Below, one piece after another: positions 7,660 to 48,208 of a stretch of 64,000 bases of DNA. Source of the DNA: Lysobacterales bacterium (GTDB lineage: Bacteria > Pseudomonadota > Gammaproteobacteria > Xanthomonadales > SZUA-5); NCBI GenBank assembly GCA_019187485.1, contig JABAQR010000012.1, forward strand, positions 1-64,000, read 5' to 3'. A program made the position numbers and the translations under genes. How positions within the stretch are numbered: position 1 is the stretch's first letter; the number at the start of each line of letters is the position of its first letter. The notes under the pieces are model-generated. The model made no database searches. It was not told the origin of the DNA and saw only the letters and a list, made by a program, of their open reading frames with translations.

Positions 7660-8043
7660 TCATTCCCCGTGGCCGGGCTGGTCGTCGAGCTGCGCGCGCC
7701 CCTTCTGGAAACGCGCCAGCTCCACCCAGGTCGGATCGGCGGCGGCGAGCAGCTTGTCGAAGATCGCCGCTTCGATCTGCTCGACATCGAAACGCGCCCA
7801 GTCGACGTACTCCAGGCGCAGGTCGTGCCAGTGGTGCGCCGCCTCGCGCAGATCCCAGCGCAAGGTGTCGACCACCTTCTGCGCCTCGTCGCGGGTCAGT
7901 TCCTCGGCCGCGACCAGGTACTCGCGCACCCCGCCGAGCGCGTGCAGCAGCGACTCCGCAGCATGCTCCTCGGCCTTCGGCAGTTCCTCGCGCAGCCAGC
8001 GGCGGGCGCTATCGTAGGCGCGTTGCAGGCGGGAGTCGGTCAT
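7660..8043 (-). CDS. DUF1451-like protein lacking a zinc ribbon
   Basis: This 127-residue charged, helical protein resembles the N-terminal part of DUF1451/YbeL proteins: EELTRDEAQKVVDTLRWDLR matches the 'LTREE...V...LRRDLR' core, and LAAADPTWVELARF matches the family's closing 'IAD(P/K)T..EW..L'. DUF1451 proteins usually end in a CxxC zinc ribbon; this one has no cysteine and stops at DDQPGHGE. I prefer ATG 8043 (MTDSRLQ); a GTG at 8073 would add ten residues. It diverges from the P-loop kinase gene with about 30 bp between the starts. Function unknown. Confidence 0.5.
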   Translation of the reverse strand: MTDSRLQRAYDSARRWLREELPKAEEHAAESLLHALGGVREYLVAAEELTRDEAQKVVDTLRWDLREAAHHWHDLRLEYVDWARFDVEQIEAAIFDKLLAAADPTWVELARFQKGRAQLDDQPGHGE

Positions 8044-8073
8044 GCGCGCTTCCTCGTCGACGGCGTCGTTCAC

Positions 8074-8649
8074 ATGTTAGCGCTGTGCCCTCCGGCGGGT
8101 CATGCGCCGCTGGTGCTCGCGCTGATGGGACTGCCGGGCGCCGGCAAGTCCACGCTCGCGCAAGCGCTCGCGGCCGCCGCGCGTTTTTCGATCCTCGACC
8201 GCGACGAGATCCGTGCCGGGATCCGCGCGGACGATGCCTCCGATGCGCTTCGCGAAGAAGCCGACCGGCTGCTGTTGCGGCGCGTCGGCTCGGGCGTGCG
8301 CGCGGCGCTGAACCTGATCGTCGACGGCAAGAGCTGGGCACGCGCCGGTGACCGCGCGGCGCTCGCCGAGGCCGTCGAGGACGCCGGCGGCGATCTCGTG
8401 TGGTGCTGGCTGGACCTGCCGCCGGAAGCGGCGATCGCACGCGTGCAGGCCGACCGCGAGCACCCGGCGCCGGATCGCAATGCCCGACTGGTGCTGCGGG
8501 TGGCCGCACGCTTCGAGCCGCCGCCGCCCGGTTGCTGGCGCTTCGACGCGCTGCTGCCGCCCGCGGAAATCGTGCGCCAGGTGCTGCTGCGGGTGGCCGG
8601 GCGCCTGGACGCGATCCTGATCGAGGACCGTCCGCAGGACCTTCCCTAG
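8074..8649 (+). CDS. P-loop (AAA_33/zeta-toxin-like) kinase
   Basis: A small 191-residue nucleotide-binding protein with Walker A GLPGAGKS (19-26) and a downstream DRDEIR segment. LIVDGKSWARAGDR lies where AAA_33 kinases hold the acceptor-binding region, and ADREHPAPDRNARLVLR looks like a lid. Such proteins phosphorylate small molecules or act as zeta-type UDP-sugar kinases. No antitoxin is adjacent, and the neighbours do not point to a toxin role. The substrate is unknown. The stop overlaps the stop of the convergent DUF4442 gene by a few bases. Confidence 0.65.
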   Translation: MLALCPPAGHAPLVLALMGLPGAGKSTLAQALAAAARFSILDRDEIRAGIRADDASDALREEADRLLLRRVGSGVRAALNLIVDGKSWARAGDRAALAEAVEDAGGDLVWCWLDLPPEAAIARVQADREHPAPDRNARLVLRVAARFEPPPPGCWRFDALLPPAEIVRQVLLRVAGRLDAILIEDRPQDLP

Positions 8650-9110
8650 CGCCGGGCTGTCTTCAGGCGCACGTAGAGTTGCTTGTGCACGCGCGCCACG
8701 AGGGTGTCGTCCTTGCCGCGCACATCGACCGCGAACCAGTGCAGCACGCGTTCGCCACCGGCCGCGCCTTTGCGGATCGCGTTCAGGTCTTCCTCGCGGA
8801 CGTGGAACTCCGCGTGCACATCGCTGCGCCCGGGATGCAGGAATTCGATCTTCGCGGCCTTGTCCCAGACGATGTAGTCGCGCCCCAGCGACTCCATCAC
8901 CAGGATCATCCAGAAGGGATCGGCCATCGCGAACAGCAGGCCGCCGAACTGGGTGCCGACGTAGTTGCGGTTGTACCAGCGCAGCTTCAGCCGCACCCGC
9001 GCGAAACGCCAGTCCTCGCCGACCTTCTCGACCTGCACGCCGCCGAACAGGAAGGGCGGCCACCAGTTGGCCCACCACTTCAGCCGTGTCGGAGTCATGC
9101 GTCTTGCCAT
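8646..9110 (-). CDS. DUF4442 hotdog-fold protein (putative thioesterase)
   Basis: The 154-residue product has the DUF4442 pattern: a basic start (MTPTRLKWWANWWPPF), a hotdog core RLKLRWYNRNYVGTQFGGLLF followed by ADPFWMILVMESLG, and a C-terminal beta-rich region. DUF4442 proteins are thioesterase-like hotdog proteins, presumably acting on acyl-CoA or acyl-carrier substrates; no catalytic test exists for this one. ATG 9110 is chosen because the conserved region begins right after it. A longer start at 9194 adds a poorly conserved stretch. Confidence 0.75.
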   Translation of the reverse strand: MARRMTPTRLKWWANWWPPFLFGGVQVEKVGEDWRFARVRLKLRWYNRNYVGTQFGGLLFAMADPFWMILVMESLGRDYIVWDKAAKIEFLHPGRSDVHAEFHVREEDLNAIRKGAAGGERVLHWFAVDVRGKDDTLVARVHKQLYVRLKTARR

Positions 9111-9227
9111 CGAGTCTGCGCGTTCCGTCCAGGGTGTCGAGTAGAGCGCGCGCGCCGCCGTCAACGCAAACGACTTTGGTCCTGCGGCCTGCACTCCGCA
9201 TCGGTCCGGTGCGCGGCGACCCGGCCC

Positions 9228-9881
9228 TCAGCCGCCCGCGAGTGCCGCGAGCCGCTCCGGGGTGCCCACGTCCGACCAGGCGCCCTGGTAGTGCTCGCCG
9301 CTGACCACGCCGAAGTCGATCGCCTCGCGCAGGATCGGCGCCAGCCCGTAACGGCCCGGTGGGTAGTGCGCGACCAGTTGCGGGCGATACACGCCGATGC
9401 CGGCGAAGGTCAGGCGCGGCGCGCCGCACAGGTGCACGCGCCCGGCGCGCAGCACGAAGTCGCCGCGCGGGTGCTGCGGTGGGTTGTCGACCAGCACCAG
9501 GTGCGCCAGGCCTGCGGGCTCGGCTGGCAGCGTCGCGTAGTCGAAGTCGGTGTGGATGTCGGCATTCAGCGCGATGAAGGGCGCATCACCGAGCAGCGCG
9601 AGTGCCTGGCGCATGCCGCCGCCGGTCTCGAGCGCCTCGGGGGGTTCGTGCGACCACTGGATGCGCAGCCCGAAGGTTTCGCCATGGCCGAGAGACATCG
9701 GCAGTTGCGCACCGAGCCAGCCGGTGTTGACGACCACGTCGACGATGCCGGCGCGCGCGAGCGCGCGCAGGTGCCAGCCGATCAGTGGCTCGCCGCGCAG
9801 GCGCAGCAGCGCCTTCGGGCAGGTGTCCGTGAGCGGCCGCATGCGCTCGCCGCGGCCGGCGGCGAAGATCAGCGCACGCAT
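9228..9881 (-). CDS. murU: N-acetylmuramate-1-phosphate uridylyltransferase-type nucleotidyltransferase
   Basis: This 217-residue nucleotidyltransferase carries the signature FAAGRGERMRPLTDTCPKAL at its N-terminus, with LNADIHTDFD as the metal-binding region and a closing WSDVGTPERL. It matches MurU of the peptidoglycan recycling route (AmgK-MurU), which makes UDP-MurNAc and bypasses de novo synthesis. MurU is usually beside amgK; no AmgK-like kinase is visible here. Close relatives such as mannose-1-phosphate guanylyltransferases cannot be excluded. The ATG overlaps the stop of the DjlA-like gene (TGATG), so the two are coupled. Confidence 0.75.
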   Translation of the reverse strand: MRALIFAAGRGERMRPLTDTCPKALLRLRGEPLIGWHLRALARAGIVDVVVNTGWLGAQLPMSLGHGETFGLRIQWSHEPPEALETGGGMRQALALLGDAPFIALNADIHTDFDYATLPAEPAGLAHLVLVDNPPQHPRGDFVLRAGRVHLCGAPRLTFAGIGVYRPQLVAHYPPGRYGLAPILREAIDFGVVSGEHYQGAWSDVGTPERLAALAGG

Positions 9882-10660
9882 CAGGCGCTGCGCCGCGCGC
9901 GCGCCGCGACGATCCGCTCGTAGGCGCTGCGCAGCTCGCGCGTGCGCGCTTCGGCAGCCCTGAGTGCGGCGGCGTCCGCTCCTTGGCCCTGCAGCTTGTC
10001 CGGGTGGTTCTGCGCGAGCAGGCGGCGCCAGGCGCGGGTCAATTCGTCGTCGCTGGCGCCCGGCGTCAGCCCGAGCGCACGGTAGCAATCCTCCAGCGCC
10101 GGTGCGGTCATTCCGGCAGCGCGCGCGGCGATCAGTTCAGCGACGCGCTCGCGGCCGAAGCCCAGGCCTGCACCGAGGCGCTCGACCAGGCCACGCTCGG
10201 CCGGCGCCATCGGCCCGTCGCGGCGCGCGAAATCGGCGAAGGCACGCAGCATGTCGGCGAGCTCATCCGGCGTGGGCGACGCGCGGCGGCGGAAGGCCGC
10301 GACTTCGTCGGCAACATCGAGCGCCTGCTGGCGACCGCGCTGGAAGGCGCGGATCGCCGCCTGGCGCGCACCCGCGTCGAGCTTCAGTCGCTGCATCAAC
10401 TGCTCGGCGGCCGCCACCTCGCCCTCGCTGACGCGCCCGTCGGCCTTGGCCAGATGACCGAGCCAGAGGAACAGGAACTCGATCCGCGGCAGCCGCGGGT
10501 CGGCCACGCGCAGACCCTCCTGCGGCCGCCAGCGCAGCCAGCCGGCGTCGAGCGCATGACCGAGCAGCAATCCGGCCGCCGCCCCGTAGGGACCGGCCAC
10601 CGCGAGGCCGAGGCCGCCACCGACCAGCTTGCCGAGCGCGCGGGAGATGGGAAGGGACAT
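9881..10660 (-). CDS. djlA: DjlA-like membrane co-chaperone (TerB + J domain)
   Basis: The 259-residue product has a hydrophobic N-terminal segment (about 10-38), a TerB-like helical domain (about 60-175, with [13 protein letters not shown]) and a C-terminal J domain. The J domain holds [20 protein letters not shown] and the essential HPD motif (NHPDKL). This is the DjlA layout: an inner-membrane protein whose J domain stimulates DnaK. ATG 10660 is used because it places the membrane segment at the N-terminus. It is followed without a gap by murU and divergent from rpe. Confidence 0.88.
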
Positions 10661-10775
10661 GCCGGCGGATTCTACGGAGGACGCCGCGCGCGTGTTGGGG
10701 TGTGGTTCGCGGCGCGGGCCCCGGTGCCTCTCGTCCCGGCTAACATCCGCGCTTCCGTTCGCCGAGGACCCGTAC

Positions 10776-11453
10776 ATGCCCGCTCCGATCATCGCCCCGT
10801 CGATCCTGTCGGCGGATTTCGCGCGCCTCGGCGAAGACACCGCGCGGGTGCTGGCGGCCGGGGCCGACTGGGTGCATTTCGACGTGATGGACAACCACTA
10901 CGTGCCGAACCTGACGGTCGGTCCGCTGGTCTGCGAGGCGCTGCGCAAGTACGGCATCGCCGCGCCGATCGACGTGCACCTGATGGTGCGGCCGGTGGAC
11001 CGCATCATCCCGGACTTCGCCAAGGCCGGCGCCAGCCTGGTCAGCTTCCACCCCGAGGCCAGCGAACACGTCGACCGCACGCTCGGCCTGATCCGCGAGT
11101 GCGGCATGCAGGCCGGACTGGTGTTCAACCCGGCGACGCCGCTGAATCACCTGGATCACGTGATCGACCAGCTCGGCCTCATCCTGATCATGTCGGTCAA
11201 TCCCGGCTTTGGCGGCCAGTCCTTCATCCCCGGCGCACTCGCCAAGCTGCGCGCCGCGCGCGCCCGCATCGAGGCCAGCGGCCGGCCAATCCGCCTGGAA
11301 GTCGACGGCGGCGTCAAGGTCGACAACATCCGCGCGATCGCGCAGGCCGGTGCCGACACCTTCGTTGCCGGATCGGCGATCTTCAACTCGCCGGACTACG
11401 CCGCGACGATCGCGAAGATGCGGGCCGAGATCGCGGCTGCCGCGGCGACGTGA
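10776..11453 (+). CDS. rpe: Ribulose-phosphate 3-epimerase
   Basis: This enzyme interconverts ribulose 5-phosphate and xylulose 5-phosphate in the pentose phosphate pathway. The 225-residue TIM barrel has all family signatures: [46 protein letters not shown] and [12 protein letters not shown], with the metal ligands His and Asp in these motifs. The length matches the family norm. It is a single gene downstream of a divergent promoter region, followed by a dispersed inverted repeat rather than trpE/gph-type neighbours. Confidence 0.97.
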
Positions 11454-41782: not shown

Positions 41783-42268
41783 ATGCAGCAGCTCACGATC
41801 GTCACCACCGGCGGCACCATCGACAAGATCTACTTCGACGATCTGTCGACCTACCAGATCGGCGAACCCGAGATCGGCCGCATCCTGACCTCCTTCGGCG
41901 TCAACTTCGGCTTCAACGTGATCGCGCTGATGCGCAAGGACAGCCTGCACCTGACCGACGAGGACCGCGAATTGATCCGGCGCACGATCGCCGCCCAGCC
42001 CGGCGAGCATGTGCTGGTCACGCACGGCACCGATACCATGATCGCGACCGCCAAGGTGCTCGCCGGCATCCCCGACAAGCGCATCGTGCTGACCGGCGCG
42101 CTCAACCCGGCGCGTTTCCAGAACTCCGACGCCGTGTTCAACATCGGTTGCGCGATCGGCGCAGTGCAATCGCTGCCGCCCGGCGTCTACATCGCGATGA
42201 GCGGGCGCGTGTGGGACCCGGCGAAAGTCCGCAAGAACCGCGACGCGAACCGCTTCGAGCCGTTGTAG
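41783..42268 (+). CDS. Single-domain asparaginase-like protein
   Basis: The 161-residue product has the two catalytic threonine motifs of type I/II asparaginases, TTGGTIDK at the start and HGTDTMIATA near 85, but no C-terminal domain. True asparaginases are about 330 residues with two domains, and the second helps build the active site across subunits. Short stand-alone versions are known in proteobacteria, and the frame ends in an intact, uninterrupted way, so this seems a genuine short family rather than a broken gene. Activity is unproven. Confidence 0.75.
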   Translation: MQQLTIVTTGGTIDKIYFDDLSTYQIGEPEIGRILTSFGVNFGFNVIALMRKDSLHLTDEDRELIRRTIAAQPGEHVLVTHGTDTMIATAKVLAGIPDKRIVLTGALNPARFQNSDAVFNIGCAIGAVQSLPPGVYIAMSGRVWDPAKVRKNRDANRFEPL

Positions 42269-42368: not shown

Positions 42369-45300
42369 ATGCGCGTCCTCGAATACGAAAGCCTGGATAC
42401 GACCGGCGCCGGATCGGCGCTGGAGCGCGTGCGCGATGCACTCTCGCGCGGCGATTTCCGTGCCGCGCAGGCAAAGAAGCTGGTCGGGGGCGATGGTCGG
42501 CTGTTCTATCGCGCCAAACTCGGCGACGCCGACCGGTTGCTGTTCACCCTGGTGCGCCACCGCGAGGAGTGTTGCATCCTGCTGCTGGAGCGGATCCGGC
42601 AGCACGATTACGCCGCCTCACGTTTCCTGCGCGGCGCCGACATCGACGAGGAGCGGATCGTCGATGTCGGCGTCGAGGAAGCCGTTTCGCAAGCGGTGCC
42701 GATGCGCTACCTGCATCCGGCGCGCACGCGCGTGCACCTGCTCGACAAGCCCTTGTCCTTCGACGATGTGCAGCAAGCGGTGTTCGAGGCGGCACCGCCA
42801 CTGGTGCTGGTCGGCAGCGCCGGCAGCGGCAAGACTGCGCTGACGCTGGAGAAACTGAAACGCATCGAAGGCGAGGTGTTGTACGTCACGCATTCGGCCT
42901 ATCTGGCGCAGAGTGCGCGCGCGCTGTACTTCGGCGGTGGCTTCGAACATCCGCGACAGCAGGCCGAGTTCCTGTCCTACCGCGAGTTCATCGAGACCTT
43001 CGCGGTGCCGGTCGGGCAGGAGGCGAGCTGGCCGCGCTTCCGCGGCTGGTTCGCGCGCATGCAGCAGGGCTTCCGCGGGCTGGATGCGCATCAGGCCTTC
43101 GAGGAGATCCGCGGCGTGATCGCGGCGCAGGCGGATGGGCCGCTGACGCGCGAGAACTACCTCGGTCTCGGCGTGCGCCAGTCGATCTACGCGCCCGAGC
43201 AGCGCGCGCAGGTCTACGATCTGTACCGGAAGTACCGCGAATGGCTGCTCGCCGAGCGCCTGTACGACCTGAACCTGCTGGCGCACGAACACCTGGCGCA
43301 GGCGCAGCCGCGTTACGACTTCGTGGTCGTCGACGAGGTCCAGGATCTGACGATGGCACAACTGGCGCTGGTGCTGAAAAGCCTGCGCCATCCCGGTCAG
43401 TTCCTGCTGTGCGGCGATTCCAACCAGATCGTGCATCCCAATTTCTTCGCGTGGAGCCAGGTCAAGACCCTGTTCTGGCGCGATGCCGAACTCGCCGCGC
43501 GTCAGCCGCTGCGTGTGCTCGCGGCGAATTACCGCAACGCCGCGCGTACCACCGCGCTCGCCAACACCCTGTTGCGCGTCAAGCACGCACGCTTCGGATC
43601 CATCGACCGCGAAAGCAACCATCTGGTCGAAGCGGTCGGCGGCGAGACCGGCAAGGCCACGCTGCTCGCGGATCGCGAAGCCGCGCTGCGCGTGCTCGAC
43701 GAGCAGACGCGGCGTTCGGCCAGGGTCGCCGTGCTGGTGCTGCGCGACGAGGACAAGCCGGCCGCACGCGAGCGTTTCCGCACGCCGCTGCTGTTCTCGG
43801 TGCACGAGGCCAAGGGGCTCGAGTACGAGCACATCGTGCTGTTCCGCTTCGTCTCCGGCCAGCGCGCCGCCTACGCCGAGATCGCCGAGGGCGTGGACGC
43901 CGGCGAGCTGACGCAGGACACGCTGGAGTACCGCCGCGCGCGCGACAAGACCGACAAATCGCTGGAGGTCTGGAAGTTCTACGTCAACGCGCTGTACGTG
44001 GCGTTGACCCGCGCGCTGCGCGACGTTTGGCTGGTCGAGTCGGACCTGCAGCACCCCTTGCTGCAACTGCTCGGCTTGCGCGAGGAGGGGGCGACACAGT
44101 TGGATGCGCGTGCGTCCTCACAGGAGGAGTGGCAGCGCGAGGCGCGCCGGCTGGAGTTGCAAGGCAAGCAGGAACAGGCGGACGCGATCCGGCGCGATGT
44201 GCTGAAGCAGGCGCGACCACCATGGCCGGTGCACGACGGCGACTGGTTGCGCGCCAGCCTGCGCAAGGCCTTCATCGAGCGCCACCCGAGCGCCAAGTTG
44301 CACCAACAGTTGTTCGATTACGCCTGCTACCACAATCGTCCCACCATCGCGCAAGCGCTCCACGATGATCTGCGCTACTCCACGCCGGAGAACTTCCTGC
44401 GTCAGGCTGGCGCGGAGCGTACGCGTACTCTGGCACCCTGTCTGGCGAAGAATTTCAAGGATTTGCTGCGACAGTGCGATCAGTACGGCACCGAGTTCCG
44501 CAGCCCGATGAACCACACGCCGCTGATGCAGGCGGCGCTGGCCGGCAACCTGCCGCTGCTGGAGGCGCTGATCGAACGCGGCGCGGACCTCGATGCCGCC
44601 GACGACTACGGGCAGACCGCGCTGCACCTGGCCATCCAGCGATCCGCGCGCGACCAGGACTACGCCCGCCGGACCTTCGCGCCGATCTATGCGCGGGTGG
44701 CGCCGGCGGTGTTCGACGTGCAGTGCGGCGGCCGCCTGGTGCGGCTGGACCGGCACCAGCCCGAATACCAGTTGCTGCAATGGATGTGGGCACTGGCCGC
44801 CCAAGCCTGGACCTTGTCGCAAGCGCATGCCACCGGATTCGACGCGGCATGGCTGCTGGGCTGCTGGGAGGCCGTTCCCGACAGCGTCGTGCCGGCGACG
44901 CGCAAGCGCCGGCAGTACCTGTCCAGCGTGCTCTCGCGCAATGAGGCGGGTCGCGATTACGCCTGGAACCGACGTCTGTTCGCGCGCTTGCGTCACGGCT
45001 ACTACTGGCTGGCGGCCGATCTTGCGGTACGCGTGCGCGAGGCCGGCGAGGAGCGCTGGATGGATCATCGCGAGCGTCTGGGCATGCGCCTGCTGCTGGA
45101 CACAGCGGCGGATCGCACCGCTCCGGCGCTCGCCCGTCGCGTGTTCGGCGAGGATGCCGGCGCCTCGATCTTCGCCGCCGAACGCCAGCGGCGCCAGCAG
45201 GCAAGGGAACAGGCAGAGGAGGCGCGCGCGCAGCGCGAACACGAGCAATTGATGGCGGAGATCGAGCGCCGCCAACGCGAGCACAACGCACAGATGCGAT

Positions 45301-45566
45301 GGATGGCGCGACAGCAGGGGAAGGGGATCGGGAGCATGCGCCCGCGTGCCGCCGCACAGCCCGAGCAGGACGACAAGCGAAGGACGCTCGGTCGCGGGCA
45401 GAGCAAAGCGGCGCACGAACGCGAGCAGGCGCGGGCCGCTGCCCTGCGCACCGCCGCCATGAGCTCCGGGCACTCCGTTTCGTCCGCGGAGACCCGCGAC
45501 GCAGCCGCGCCGGAGATCTTGAAACCGGAGCCCTGGACGCTGGACCTGCGCAAGCCCCGTTCCTGA
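42369..45566 (+). CDS. RelE-like / UvrD-like helicase / ankyrin fusion protein
   Basis: The 1065-residue product begins with a RelE/ParE-like domain (about 28-95: KLVGGDGRLFYRAKLGDADR then LLLERIRQHDYAASRFLRGA). An SF1 helicase core follows with Walker A VGSAGSGKT (148-156), Walker B VVVDEVQDL (319-327), GDSNQIVHPN (349-358), HEAKGLEYEHIVL and YVALTRALRD (543-552). About 150 residues later come one to two ankyrin repeats (715-760), and it ends with a charged coiled coil (about 935-985) and a low-complexity tail. Related RelE-UvrD proteins occur sporadically in bacteria and the core resembles eukaryotic TRANK1-like proteins. Role unknown; repair, RNA surveillance or defence are all possible. 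Confidence 0.8.
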   Translation: MRVLEYESLDTTGAGSALERVRDALSRGDFRAAQAKKLVGGDGRLFYRAKLGDADRLLFTLVRHREECCILLLERIRQHDYAASRFLRGADIDEERIVDVGVEEAVSQAVPMRYLHPARTRVHLLDKPLSFDDVQQAVFEAAPPLVLVGSAGSGKTALTLEKLKRIEGEVLYVTHSAYLAQSARALYFGGGFEHPRQQAEFLSYREFIETFAVPVGQEASWPRFRGWFARMQQGFRGLDAHQAFEEIRGVIAAQADGPLTRENYLGLGVRQSIYAPEQRAQVYDLYRKYREWLLAERLYDLNLLAHEHLAQAQPRYDFVVVDEVQDLTMAQLALVLKSLRHPGQFLLCGDSNQIVHPNFFAWSQVKTLFWRDAELAARQPLRVLAANYRNAARTTALANTLLRVKHARFGSIDRESNHLVEAVGGETGKATLLADREAALRVLDEQTRRSARVAVLVLRDEDKPAARERFRTPLLFSVHEAKGLEYEHIVLFRFVSGQRAAYAEIAEGVDAGELTQDTLEYRRARDKTDKSLEVWKFYVNALYVALTRALRDVWLVESDLQHPLLQLLGLREEGATQLDARASSQEEWQREARRLELQGKQEQADAIRRDVLKQARPPWPVHDGDWLRASLRKAFIERHPSAKLHQQLFDYACYHNRPTIAQALHDDLRYSTPENFLRQAGAERTRTLAPCLAKNFKDLLRQCDQYGTEFRSPMNHTPLMQAALAGNLPLLEALIERGADLDAADDYGQTALHLAIQRSARDQDYARRTFAPIYARVAPAVFDVQCGGRLVRLDRHQPEYQLLQWMWALAAQAWTLSQAHATGFDAAWLLGCWEAVPDSVVPATRKRRQYLSSVLSRNEAGRDYAWNRRLFARLRHGYYWLAADLAVRVREAGEERWMDHRERLGMRLLLDTAADRTAPALARRVFGEDAGASIFAAERQRRQQAREQAEEARAQREHEQLMAEIERRQREHNAQMRWMARQQGKGIGSMRPRAAAQPEQDDKRRTLGRGQSKAAHEREQARAAALRTAAMSSGHSVSSAETRDAAAPEILKPEPWTLDLRKPRS

Positions 45567-45616: not shown

Positions 45617-48208
45617 CTACGGCGATGCCCAGAGGCGAAGCAACAACCAGGTCGGGACGCCGAAGTAGTAAGCACCGCGTGCGATCCACGAACAGACGGC
45701 CGCCACCCGGGTGCGCTCCGTCGGATACCACCTTGCGATCAGCGCACTGGCGCCCCCGCAGGCCGCGCCCAGCAAGGCGGCGTAGAGCATCAATCCCAGC
45801 GACCACGCCGCCCACCACAGGCAAAGGCCGAGCAACCAGGCCTGGGCGCCGTAGGTCTGCCATTCGCCGAAGGCGCCGCCGAAGGCGATGAGTTGGTGCA
45901 GGCGAAAGGCTGGCAGCGCCAGCAAGAGTGGATACAGGCCGAATTTGATCGCGGCATGGTCGAGCCAGCGGTGATGCGCGAACGCGTGCGCGGCCGCGGC
46001 TTCGGCACGATGTCGCGCGGGCGCGTCGGCGAAGATGGCAGGGGCGCCCGCGGCCGCGAGGGTGCGGTGCAGCGCGAGTGGGTCGGCGAGCCACAGCCCG
46101 TGCTTCCAGCGTTGGCCGGAGGCGAACTCGATGTCGACGCCCGGGCCCGGAAGCGGCAGTCGCCAGGGGTGCAGGCGCGCGATGTTCGCGAGCGGGATCT
46201 CGATGCGCCGGTGACGCTGACGCAGCACCAGATGCGGGCCGTCGAACTCGACGCGCGCGCGCCCGGCAAGCCGGATCGCGTGCGCCAGCAGCAGCGGCAG
46301 CAACACGCCGCCCGCCCAGAGCTGGATCTGCCACAGCGAGTTCACCTGCAGACCGTTGACCAGCAGCATGCGCAGACCGAGCATGAGCAGCACGCCGGCG
46401 GCGAGGGCGCGCAGCAATGCGGCGCTGGAGCGTGCTCCCGGCGACAACGCGCAGAGCAGGCCGACGCCGGTGCGGGTGGCGCGCTGCGACTCATCGACGG
46501 CATCGTGCGAACCCCTCGACACGGGGATGGCGATTCCATCGGGTGTGCGCTCTGCGGCAATCGGATTCAGTCCGGCCTCCTCCTCCCGCGCGGTCGCAAG
46601 TCGGCAGCGGCGATCCGGTGCCAGCGTTGCCGGTCCACGCGCGAAGCCGAAGGTGCCGAGCAACGCCAGAAAACCCAGCGCCGCAGCGCCCAGCCAGTCG
46701 CCCCAATGCGCCATCAGGGTGATCGGCGGCGCGCGCACCGGGATTTCGCCGACCAGCACGGCCTGGTCGCCGAGCCCGGTGCGCACCAGCACTTCGCCGC
46801 TGGGGTCGATGAAGGCGCTGAGGCCGGTGGTGGTCACGCGCAACTGCGGCATGCGGGTTTCGATGCTGCGGAAGCTGGCGACCGCGAGGTGCAGGCGCGC
46901 GCCCTGTGGGTTGGCGCTGAACCAGGCGTCGTTCGACAGGCCGACGATCGCCTGCGCGCCGAGGCGCGCACCGTCGATGGCGAGCTGCGGCACCACGTCG
47001 TCCAGGCAGATCAGCGGCTGCACATCGAGTTCGATCCCGTCCGCGCCGCGCAGGGTGTACACGCGTGCGCCGTCGCCCGGCTGCCAGTGGCCGGTCCACG
47101 GCAGCCAGCGCCGCAGCGTGGGGCCATCCAGCCAGGCCGGCACGTGCTCGCTGAGCGGGAAGGGATGGGTCTTGCGGTAGTGGCCGACGAGGCCGCGCCC
47201 AGGCTCGACGAAGGCCGCCGAGTTGTACTCGCCGGCGGCGTCGAGATCGTAGCTGCCGAACACCAGCGGTACGCGCGTGGCTTCGACGAAATCGAGGATC
47301 TCGCGATCGAGCGCGGCGCCGTCGGCGCTGCGTGGCTGGCCGAAGGTGGTCGGGTACACGGTTTCGGTCCACAACAGTGCCTGTGCACCGTGGTGTTCGA
47401 TCGCCGCGCGCGAGAGCTCGAAGTGGCGGTCGAGCACCTGGCGCACCACCGCGTAGGCGCCGAACTCCTCGCGCCTGCGCTCGTAGTCGCTGAGGTTGGC
47501 CTGCACCAGGCCGACGCGCAGCGCCGGCACCGGCGTGGACAGCGTTTCGCGCAGCTCCGCCAGTCGGTACATCCCGTAGCCGGCCATCGCCAGCGGCAGC
47601 GCGCACGCGAGCGCGAGCGGTCGCGCCAGCGCGCGTGCGCCCACGCGTCGGAACTGCAGGATCGCCTGCGCGAGCGCTTCGTTGGCGAGCAGCAGCAGCA
47701 GCGTGATCGCGGCGGCGCCGCCGAGATCGGCGACCTGGCGCAGCGTGGTCGCGTCCGCCAGGCCGTGCCCGAGGGTGTCGCCGAGCAGTTTCGGACACAG
47801 CCACTCGCAGCCCACCCAGGCAGCGGCGGCGGCCAGCGCGCGCAGCCCGGGGCCGTGGCGGCGGCCGACCCAGTGCCGCAGCAACGCGAAGGCCAGCCAC
47901 TGCGGCTGCAACAGCGGCGCCGCGACCACCAGCGCCAGCGCCCCGGCCGCGGTGCCGAGTCCGGTGTAGCCGCCGATCGCGATCGCGAACCAGGCGAACA
48001 CCGCCAGCGCGAAGGCGATGCTCATCGCGAGCGCGCTCGCGAGTGCGCCGCGCAGGCTGCGGATGCGCTCCAGCGCCAGCAGCCAGGGCACCAGGGCGAT
48101 GAAACCGAGCGGCCAGGCGTCGCCACCGCGCGCGTACAGGCCGAGCAGCAGCGCGCTGCCGGCGATGCCGGCGAGCGCCTGCCAGACGGGGCGCTGCGGC
48201 AGTTTCAC
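45617..48208 (-). CDS. lnt: Apolipoprotein N-acyltransferase with extra C-terminal membrane region
   Basis: Residues 1-525 are Lnt: several N-terminal membrane helices, then a nitrilase-type periplasmic domain with the triad E282 (WTETVYP), K346 (YRKTHPF) and C401 (LICLDD). Lnt adds the third acyl chain to lipoproteins in the inner membrane. Normal Lnt is about 510 residues and carries ICYE at the cysteine; here it is ICLD. A further 340 residues follow, with membrane segments (about 605-650 and 765-860) around a beta-rich PH-like stretch (about 665-720) that I do not recognise. The GTG start overlaps the stop of the upstream gene. Confidence 0.82.
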   Translation of the reverse strand: MKLPQRPVWQALAGIAGSALLLGLYARGGDAWPLGFIALVPWLLALERIRSLRGALASALAMSIAFALAVFAWFAIAIGGYTGLGTAAGALALVVAAPLLQPQWLAFALLRHWVGRRHGPGLRALAAAAAWVGCEWLCPKLLGDTLGHGLADATTLRQVADLGGAAAITLLLLLANEALAQAILQFRRVGARALARPLALACALPLAMAGYGMYRLAELRETLSTPVPALRVGLVQANLSDYERRREEFGAYAVVRQVLDRHFELSRAAIEHHGAQALLWTETVYPTTFGQPRSADGAALDREILDFVEATRVPLVFGSYDLDAAGEYNSAAFVEPGRGLVGHYRKTHPFPLSEHVPAWLDGPTLRRWLPWTGHWQPGDGARVYTLRGADGIELDVQPLICLDDVVPQLAIDGARLGAQAIVGLSNDAWFSANPQGARLHLAVASFRSIETRMPQLRVTTTGLSAFIDPSGEVLVRTGLGDQAVLVGEIPVRAPPITLMAHWGDWLGAAALGFLALLGTFGFARGPATLAPDRRCRLATAREEEAGLNPIAAERTPDGIAIPVSRGSHDAVDESQRATRTGVGLLCALSPGARSSAALLRALAAGVLLMLGLRMLLVNGLQVNSLWQIQLWAGGVLLPLLLAHAIRLAGRARVEFDGPHLVLRQRHRRIEIPLANIARLHPWRLPLPGPGVDIEFASGQRWKHGLWLADPLALHRTLAAAGAPAIFADAPARHRAEAAAAHAFAHHRWLDHAAIKFGLYPLLLALPAFRLHQLIAFGGAFGEWQTYGAQAWLLGLCLWWAAWSLGLMLYAALLGAACGGASALIARWYPTERTRVAAVCSWIARGAYYFGVPTWLLLRLWASP

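Follow-up and report, generated by a model that had tools for sequence, protein, structure and literature searches.

What does a bacterial protein do that carries a toxin-like fold, a helicase motor and ankyrin repeats in one chain? The gene that raises this question lies at positions 42369-45566 (+ strand) of the window, by which we mean the whole analysed stretch of 64,000 nucleotides from a Lysobacterales bacterium. It starts with ATG and codes for 1065 amino acids. An earlier reading, made from the letters only, had described its product as a RelE-like domain fused to a UvrD-like helicase, ankyrin repeats and a coiled coil, and had proposed it as an undescribed defence or RNA-quality system.

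Reality of the Gene and Order of Domains

The window has a GC content of 69%, and long open reading frames in other frames are common there, so that length alone is weak proof of a gene. The reality of the 1065-residue gene was accepted because its orthologs begin at the same Met and most of them align from Met1 to approximately residue 910, with 34-59% identity; those with 45-60% identity come from several phyla. This agrees with the single protein proposed earlier at these positions. The chain contains, in order, a RelE-fold domain, a linker, an SF1 helicase, a helical region, ankyrin repeats, a C-terminal module and a long helix. The full-length AF2 model had a pLDDT of 83.8 and a pTM of 0.81. 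Scanning of the window gene with NCBIfam and PADLOC revealed no family for the protein.

The N-Terminal Domain

The N-terminal domain comprises residues 1-88 (42369-42632, + strand) and is followed by a linker of residues 89-127 (42633-42749, + strand), in which RFLRG and YLHP segments are conserved in the alignment. Its identification as a RelE/YoeB fold is based on the AF2 model, PDB fold matches and conservation. For folding with AF2, the N-terminal 127 residues were used together with 28 aligned orthologs. The resulting model had a pLDDT of 91.8 and a pTM of 0.87, and residues 1-85 were confident (pLDDT 92). Its elements follow each other as a strand, a helix and four strands (beta-alpha-beta4), in agreement with the beta-alpha(alpha)-beta4 arrangement of the RelE/ParE superfamily. 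The top Foldseek matches were YoeB and ParE toxins, with a modest best E of 0.0024, and VIA-align against the PDB placed YoeB first, with a Z of 8.0 (rmsd 2.6 A, 77 aa), although a lone Z of 7-8 is weak. The best 50 PDB rows of VIA-align consisted nearly entirely of RelE, YoeB, YafQ, HigB and ParE toxins, with the Cami1 RelE domain among them. The fold was therefore assigned from the uniformity of this list and not from any single Z. The RelE-like fold that the sequence-only reading had placed at approximately residues 1-110, and had left for structure prediction to decide, is thus present in the predicted structure.

Sequence profiles were less telling. No Pfam family, the RelE, ParE and YoeB models included, matched the N-terminal domain, and the ParE_toxin model PF05016 was silent at the window locus. 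A PDB profile search with this domain returned polysaccharide-deacetylase matches only, which were dismissed as chance. A comparison with YoeB in hhalign gave a weak match (P 0.007; four unrelated slices used as controls gave P 0.09-0.46) whose register was the expected one, R56 being paired with the Arg conserved in YoeB, and the same comparison with ParE gave no match. H79 stands opposite the terminal His of YoeB in a placement made by eye only. Sequence methods miss the kinship with RelE, which is seen in the predicted structure.

The residues K37, R48, R56, E74, H79, Y81 and S84 are invariant in 26 of 26 diverse orthologs, the most diverged included, and are thereby as strictly kept as the Walker and DExQD motifs of the helicase. 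At position 50, every one of these orthologs except one has Lys or Arg. Such invariant polar residues argue for a selected chemistry or an RNA-binding role, as opposed to a decaying scaffold; RNase activity is not thereby proven. They also bear on the alternative that the RelE fold is a non-catalytic module for binding nucleic acid or protein and that the whole protein is an accessory helicase of DNA repair or recombination, or one directed against mobile elements. The RelE/ParE superfamily does include gyrase-binding ParE toxins, the sequence of the window domain is far from known RNases, and the motor described below is nearest to Rep and UvrD by fold and by sequence. Seven invariant polar residues in 26 diverse orthologs are nevertheless above the expectation for a plain scaffold, and the conserved His and Tyr after the last strand recur in the ArmD protein discussed below. 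We consider this alternative unlikely.

The Helicase Motor

Residues 128-577 (42750-44099, + strand) form a UvrD/Rep-type SF1 helicase core, matched by the Pfam UvrD-helicase and UvrD_C_2 families. The ortholog alignment located Walker A, GSAGSGKT with K155 (42813-42836, +), Walker B, DEVQD at 322-326 (43332-43346, +), motif V, HEAKGLEY at 479-486 (43803-43826, +), and motif VI, ALYVALTRA at 541-549 (43989-44015, +). Motifs Q, I, II, III, IV, V and VI are all present and are invariant in 24-26 of the 26 orthologs, as expected from the earlier description of a complete SF1 motor. With these motifs and two RecA domains, the protein belongs to the UvrD/Rep group of SF1A. When residues 121-577 were compared with known folds, the best matches were Rep and UvrD (Z 25.4, rmsd 3.7, 398 aa); HelD, FBH1, SLFN11/14 and viral SF1 helicases were more remote. 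A resemblance of the core to eukaryotic TRANK1-like proteins had also been suggested, and no published link between TRANK1 and a bacterial protein was found in the literature; nor did the searches turn up a solved structure of TRANK1.

Ankyrin Repeats and the C-Terminal Tail

The motor is followed by a helical region, residues 578-700 (44100-44468, +), and, behind the ankyrin repeats, by a mixed alpha/beta C-terminal module, residues 778-905 (44700-45083, +). Both were recognized from the model and from conservation inside the family, have no known domain by sequence and are absent from the earlier description. Attempts to identify them by PDB and Pfam searches gave matches at chance level only. 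The ankyrin repeats predicted earlier are real, although there are only about two of them, at residues 708-777 (44490-44699, +); they are supported by helix pairs in the model and by Pfam (Ank_5 2.7e-10 and others), whose single stretch covers residues 708-759. The coiled coil was borne out in part: the full-length model has a long helix at residues 934-984 (45168-45320, +), but it is not conserved, and the tail beyond the conserved regions varies from 0 to 160 aa among orthologs. Apart from ankyrin matches, the second half of the protein was found only in the same family, and because the C-terminal module is confined to it in this way, we found no swapped architectures.

Genomic Neighbourhood

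The neighbours of the gene in the window are PhaZ, MFS, AidB-like, asparaginase-like and apolipoprotein N-acyltransferase (Lnt) genes. The asparaginase-like gene lies directly upstream (41783-42268, +) and is shared by all nine genomes of the family; in none of the relatives examined does a copy of the helicase gene stand beside it. The Lnt gene lies downstream on the opposite strand (45617-48208, -), and its block is found in relatives on another contig or elsewhere. The window Lnt has approximately 250 extra C-terminal residues, which are also present in several relatives. Relatives thus keep the AidB-asparaginase pair, which lies upstream in the window, and the Lnt block, which lies downstream, but apart and without the helicase gene. 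As these blocks are not adjacent there, the relatives offer no clean empty site, and no convincing mobile-element ends or target duplications were seen around the window copy.

No antitoxin gene is adjacent to the window gene, whose upstream neighbour is the asparaginase-like gene. Among the ortholog loci compared, no partner gene recurs between lineages, which indicates that there is no dedicated antitoxin. Individual orthologs are flanked by genes for SoFic (1.9e-84), PDC-S01, a NACHT-FGE protein, HipA (two loci) and a component of an addiction module. Directly upstream of the copies of three Chlorobi stands a patatin effector of the CBASS type. These defence and toxin flanks, which were chosen by eye with no control set, are suggestive of a conflict role. 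Many copies are flanked by ordinary housekeeping genes, and there is no consistent defence island.

Two of these settings deserve separate description. In the Chlorobi, the patatin-like phospholipase gene (L034:3409-4413, L052:4913-5947 and the upstream end of L039) shares the strand of the helicase gene and precedes it by 32-121 bases, and the L034 copy matches the PADLOC CBASS effector model at 5e-71. The patatin and the helicase may possibly form a two-gene version of the system. Near one Chlorobi copy, L059:11270-13690 codes for a NACHT protein with a C-terminal domain like sulfatase-modifying factor, possibly an NLR-like conflict gene.

Distribution and Mobility

A scan of GTDB genomes yielded 32 orthologs, and a scan of plasmids 134 records. 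The hosts include Chlorobiaceae, Oxalobacteraceae/Burkholderiaceae, Azotobacter, Nitrosospira, Rhodanobacter, Holophagaceae, Myxococcaceae, Campylobacterales, Methylosinus, Deinococcus, Thermus, Escherichia and Shigella. The fusion is found intact in Pseudomonadota, Chlorobiota, Acidobacteriota, Myxococcota, Campylobacterota and Deinococcota. Within the family of the window organism, one of eight relatives (G002, of the same genus) has the protein, with 45-53% identity, when short matches to ankyrin or helicase motifs are discounted. In the phylum sample, the N-terminal domain was found in 10 of 398 genomes, always at the head of a long open frame of at least 618 aa. A tree, built with a quick method and containing some long branches, assigned the window copy to one supported group and the same-genus copy to another, and it nested Chlorobiota copies among proteobacterial ones.

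In E. coli, 95 of 5,426 genomes carry the gene with a coverage of at least 80%. There it occupies CP4-like islands that also contain cbtA/yeeU, antirestriction, inovirus gp2-like and CDI genes, often immediately ahead of an Rpn nuclease gene, and it is found on large plasmids as well. Two broken E. coli copies were seen (L100:8995-9537; L088:15001-17846), one truncated beside IS elements and one frameshifted with an internal stop. Partial E. coli matches, which at first suggested reuse of the C-terminal domain, turned out to be an IS-truncated remnant. No copy was found in phage records, and IMG/VR contained two loci. At one of them the gene has MuA/MuB-like genes on one side and an inovirus gp2-like gene of the island type on the other (L085:3300-7228 and 7812-10859). 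Phage cargo was considered for this locus, and it was read instead as an island neighbour.

The inheritance of the gene is horizontal and accessory, as follows from its patchy presence, the discordant tree, its carriage by islands and large plasmids, and the flanking blocks that lack it in relatives. Uniform vertical inheritance beside housekeeping genes, which had been named as evidence against the original proposal, is not the pattern observed.

The same data weigh on a role in RNA or ribosome quality control, in which the motor would clear stalled complexes or unwind RNA and the RelE domain would cleave mRNA in stalled ribosomes, serving stress survival and not phage defence. RelE-type toxins commonly act on mRNA in the ribosomal A site, the fold of the motor is also matched by RNA helicases of SF1, and the neighbours are often housekeeping genes. 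The gene is very patchy and mobile, unlike core quality-control factors, and the top match of the motor is the DNA helicase Rep; we regard such a role as rather improbable. A self-contained toxin for addiction or for maintenance of plasmids and genomic islands is less probable again: the gene is carried by large plasmids and CP4-like islands, and IS-truncated remnants and a frameshifted copy exist, but many copies on chromosomes are not part of a recognised element, and loss is not lethal, because remnants are tolerated.

Relation to Known Systems

The closest known protein is ArmD of the ARMADA type II system of E. coli NCTC 12900, described in a 2025 preprint as a RelE-UvrD fusion in an anti-phage operon, where protection needs all four genes and the Walker A lysine of ArmD (PMC12458937). 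The available text reports no mutation in the RelE part of ArmD. For comparison we used ECs_5264 of E. coli Sakai, from the operon ECs_5261-5264 in SpLE6, which was assigned by gene order and size. Like the window protein, ArmD begins with a RelE-like domain, behind which comes a UvrD/GajB-like SF1 helicase. The two helicases are homologs (BLASTP 7e-11, 23% identity; profile probability 99.7%), and in both RelE parts an Arg is conserved, as is HD..Y behind the last strand. Profiles of the RelE parts of the window family and ArmD matched marginally (P 0.027), with R56 on the conserved Arg of ArmD and H79 on the conserved His. ArmD differs in its length of 704 aa, in a longer spacer (Walker A K266 compared with K155 in the window), in the absence of ankyrin repeats and of the C-terminal module, and in its obligate four-gene operon, whereas the window gene is stand-alone. 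Full-length homology is absent, as the helicase alone aligns, and tblastn found no relatives of ArmA, ArmB or ArmC in the window or at the ortholog loci. Because the RelE parts are only marginally alike and ArmA, ArmB and ArmC are absent, we assign the protein to a distinct family in the RelE-SF1 class and not to ArmD. The claim of an undescribed system thus holds for the stand-alone, ankyrin-tailed family, which is new, but not for the RelE-UvrD fusion as such, which is already known from ArmD (PMC12458937). The genome of the window organism has, outside the window, a second RelE-UvrD helicase (G000:C22:33362-35422, locus L193), which is ArmD-like over its full length and 34% identical to the Sakai protein.

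Other systems share single features. GajB of Gabija is also a UvrD-like SF1 helicase of a defence system, and PADLOC gave weak matches to it, the best at 34 bits; Gabija, however, is a GajA-GajB pair with a separate OLD-family nuclease, and no GajA-like gene was found among the neighbours scanned. In Cami1 (CARF-RelE; fold match Z 6.7), a RelE-fold domain is likewise fused to a sensor in place of an antitoxin, but it senses cyclic oligoadenylate of type III CRISPR and has no helicase. Hachiman has a sensor helicase that restrains a nuclease (PMC12278908). In HamAB this restraint lasts until aberrant DNA is met; the nuclease and helicase families are different, two genes are used, and DNA is degraded. 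SLFN11 combines an RNase with an SF1 helicase, senses ssDNA, shuts translation and is an antiviral factor (PMC11615386). SLFN11 and SLFN14 resemble the window protein in having an N-terminal RNase and a C-terminal SF1 helicase in one chain, with antiviral action on translation RNAs, and their motor matches by fold at a Z of about 20, but they are eukaryotic proteins. The Schlafen RNase fold is unrelated to RelE. Hachiman and SLFN11 are analogies for the mechanism and not kin.

Proposed Function

The reading that we favour, tentatively, is that of a stand-alone, horizontally transferred and self-restrained conflict protein, most likely anti-phage, in which the motor would sense and the RelE-type RNase would act. 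It is supported by the RelE fold, the invariant residues, the complete motor, the patchy transfer, the islands and plasmids, the defence flanks, and the precedents of ArmD, Hachiman and SLFN11. It is weakened by the failure of sequence profiles to detect the RelE domain, by a Foldseek E of only 0.002 and by the many housekeeping flanks. From this evidence we infer the RNase activity, its gating by the motor, the trigger and the defence role. Of the defence or RNA-quality function proposed from sequence, the RelE fold, intact motor, ankyrin repeats and patchy, non-vertical inheritance stand, and defence itself is plausible from genomic context.

In this conflict protein, the SF1 motor would survey nucleic acid. 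The restraint on the N-terminal domain would be altered either when the motor, driven by ATP, engages an aberrant substrate (ssDNA ends, stalled forks, phage RNA or DNA intermediates) or when the ankyrin and C-terminal tail binds a trigger protein. The RelE-fold RNase may then cut mRNA or another translation RNA, so that the infected or damaged cell stops. As there is no antitoxin gene, the restraint must be intramolecular, and the ankyrin and C-terminal regions would serve trigger recognition or restraint. A bolder version, possible but doubtful, is a one-gene bacterial immune protein of at least six phyla and E. coli islands, in which a UvrD-type motor gates the RelE-fold RNase of the same chain and the tail is both trigger receptor and built-in antitoxin; it would be a functional counterpart of Schlafens.

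A RelE toxin is normally a separate protein kept in check by an antitoxin. In the window protein, a RelE-fold domain is joined permanently to an SF1 motor and a tail with ankyrin repeats, and an antitoxin gene is absent. Taken with ArmD, this suggests that RelE-SF1 helicase conflict proteins make up a wider class. The stand-alone form is its easiest member to test, as it has one gene and two separable active sites. It also lets one ask whether bacteria and animal Schlafens came independently to the pairing of an RNase with a sensor motor of SF1.
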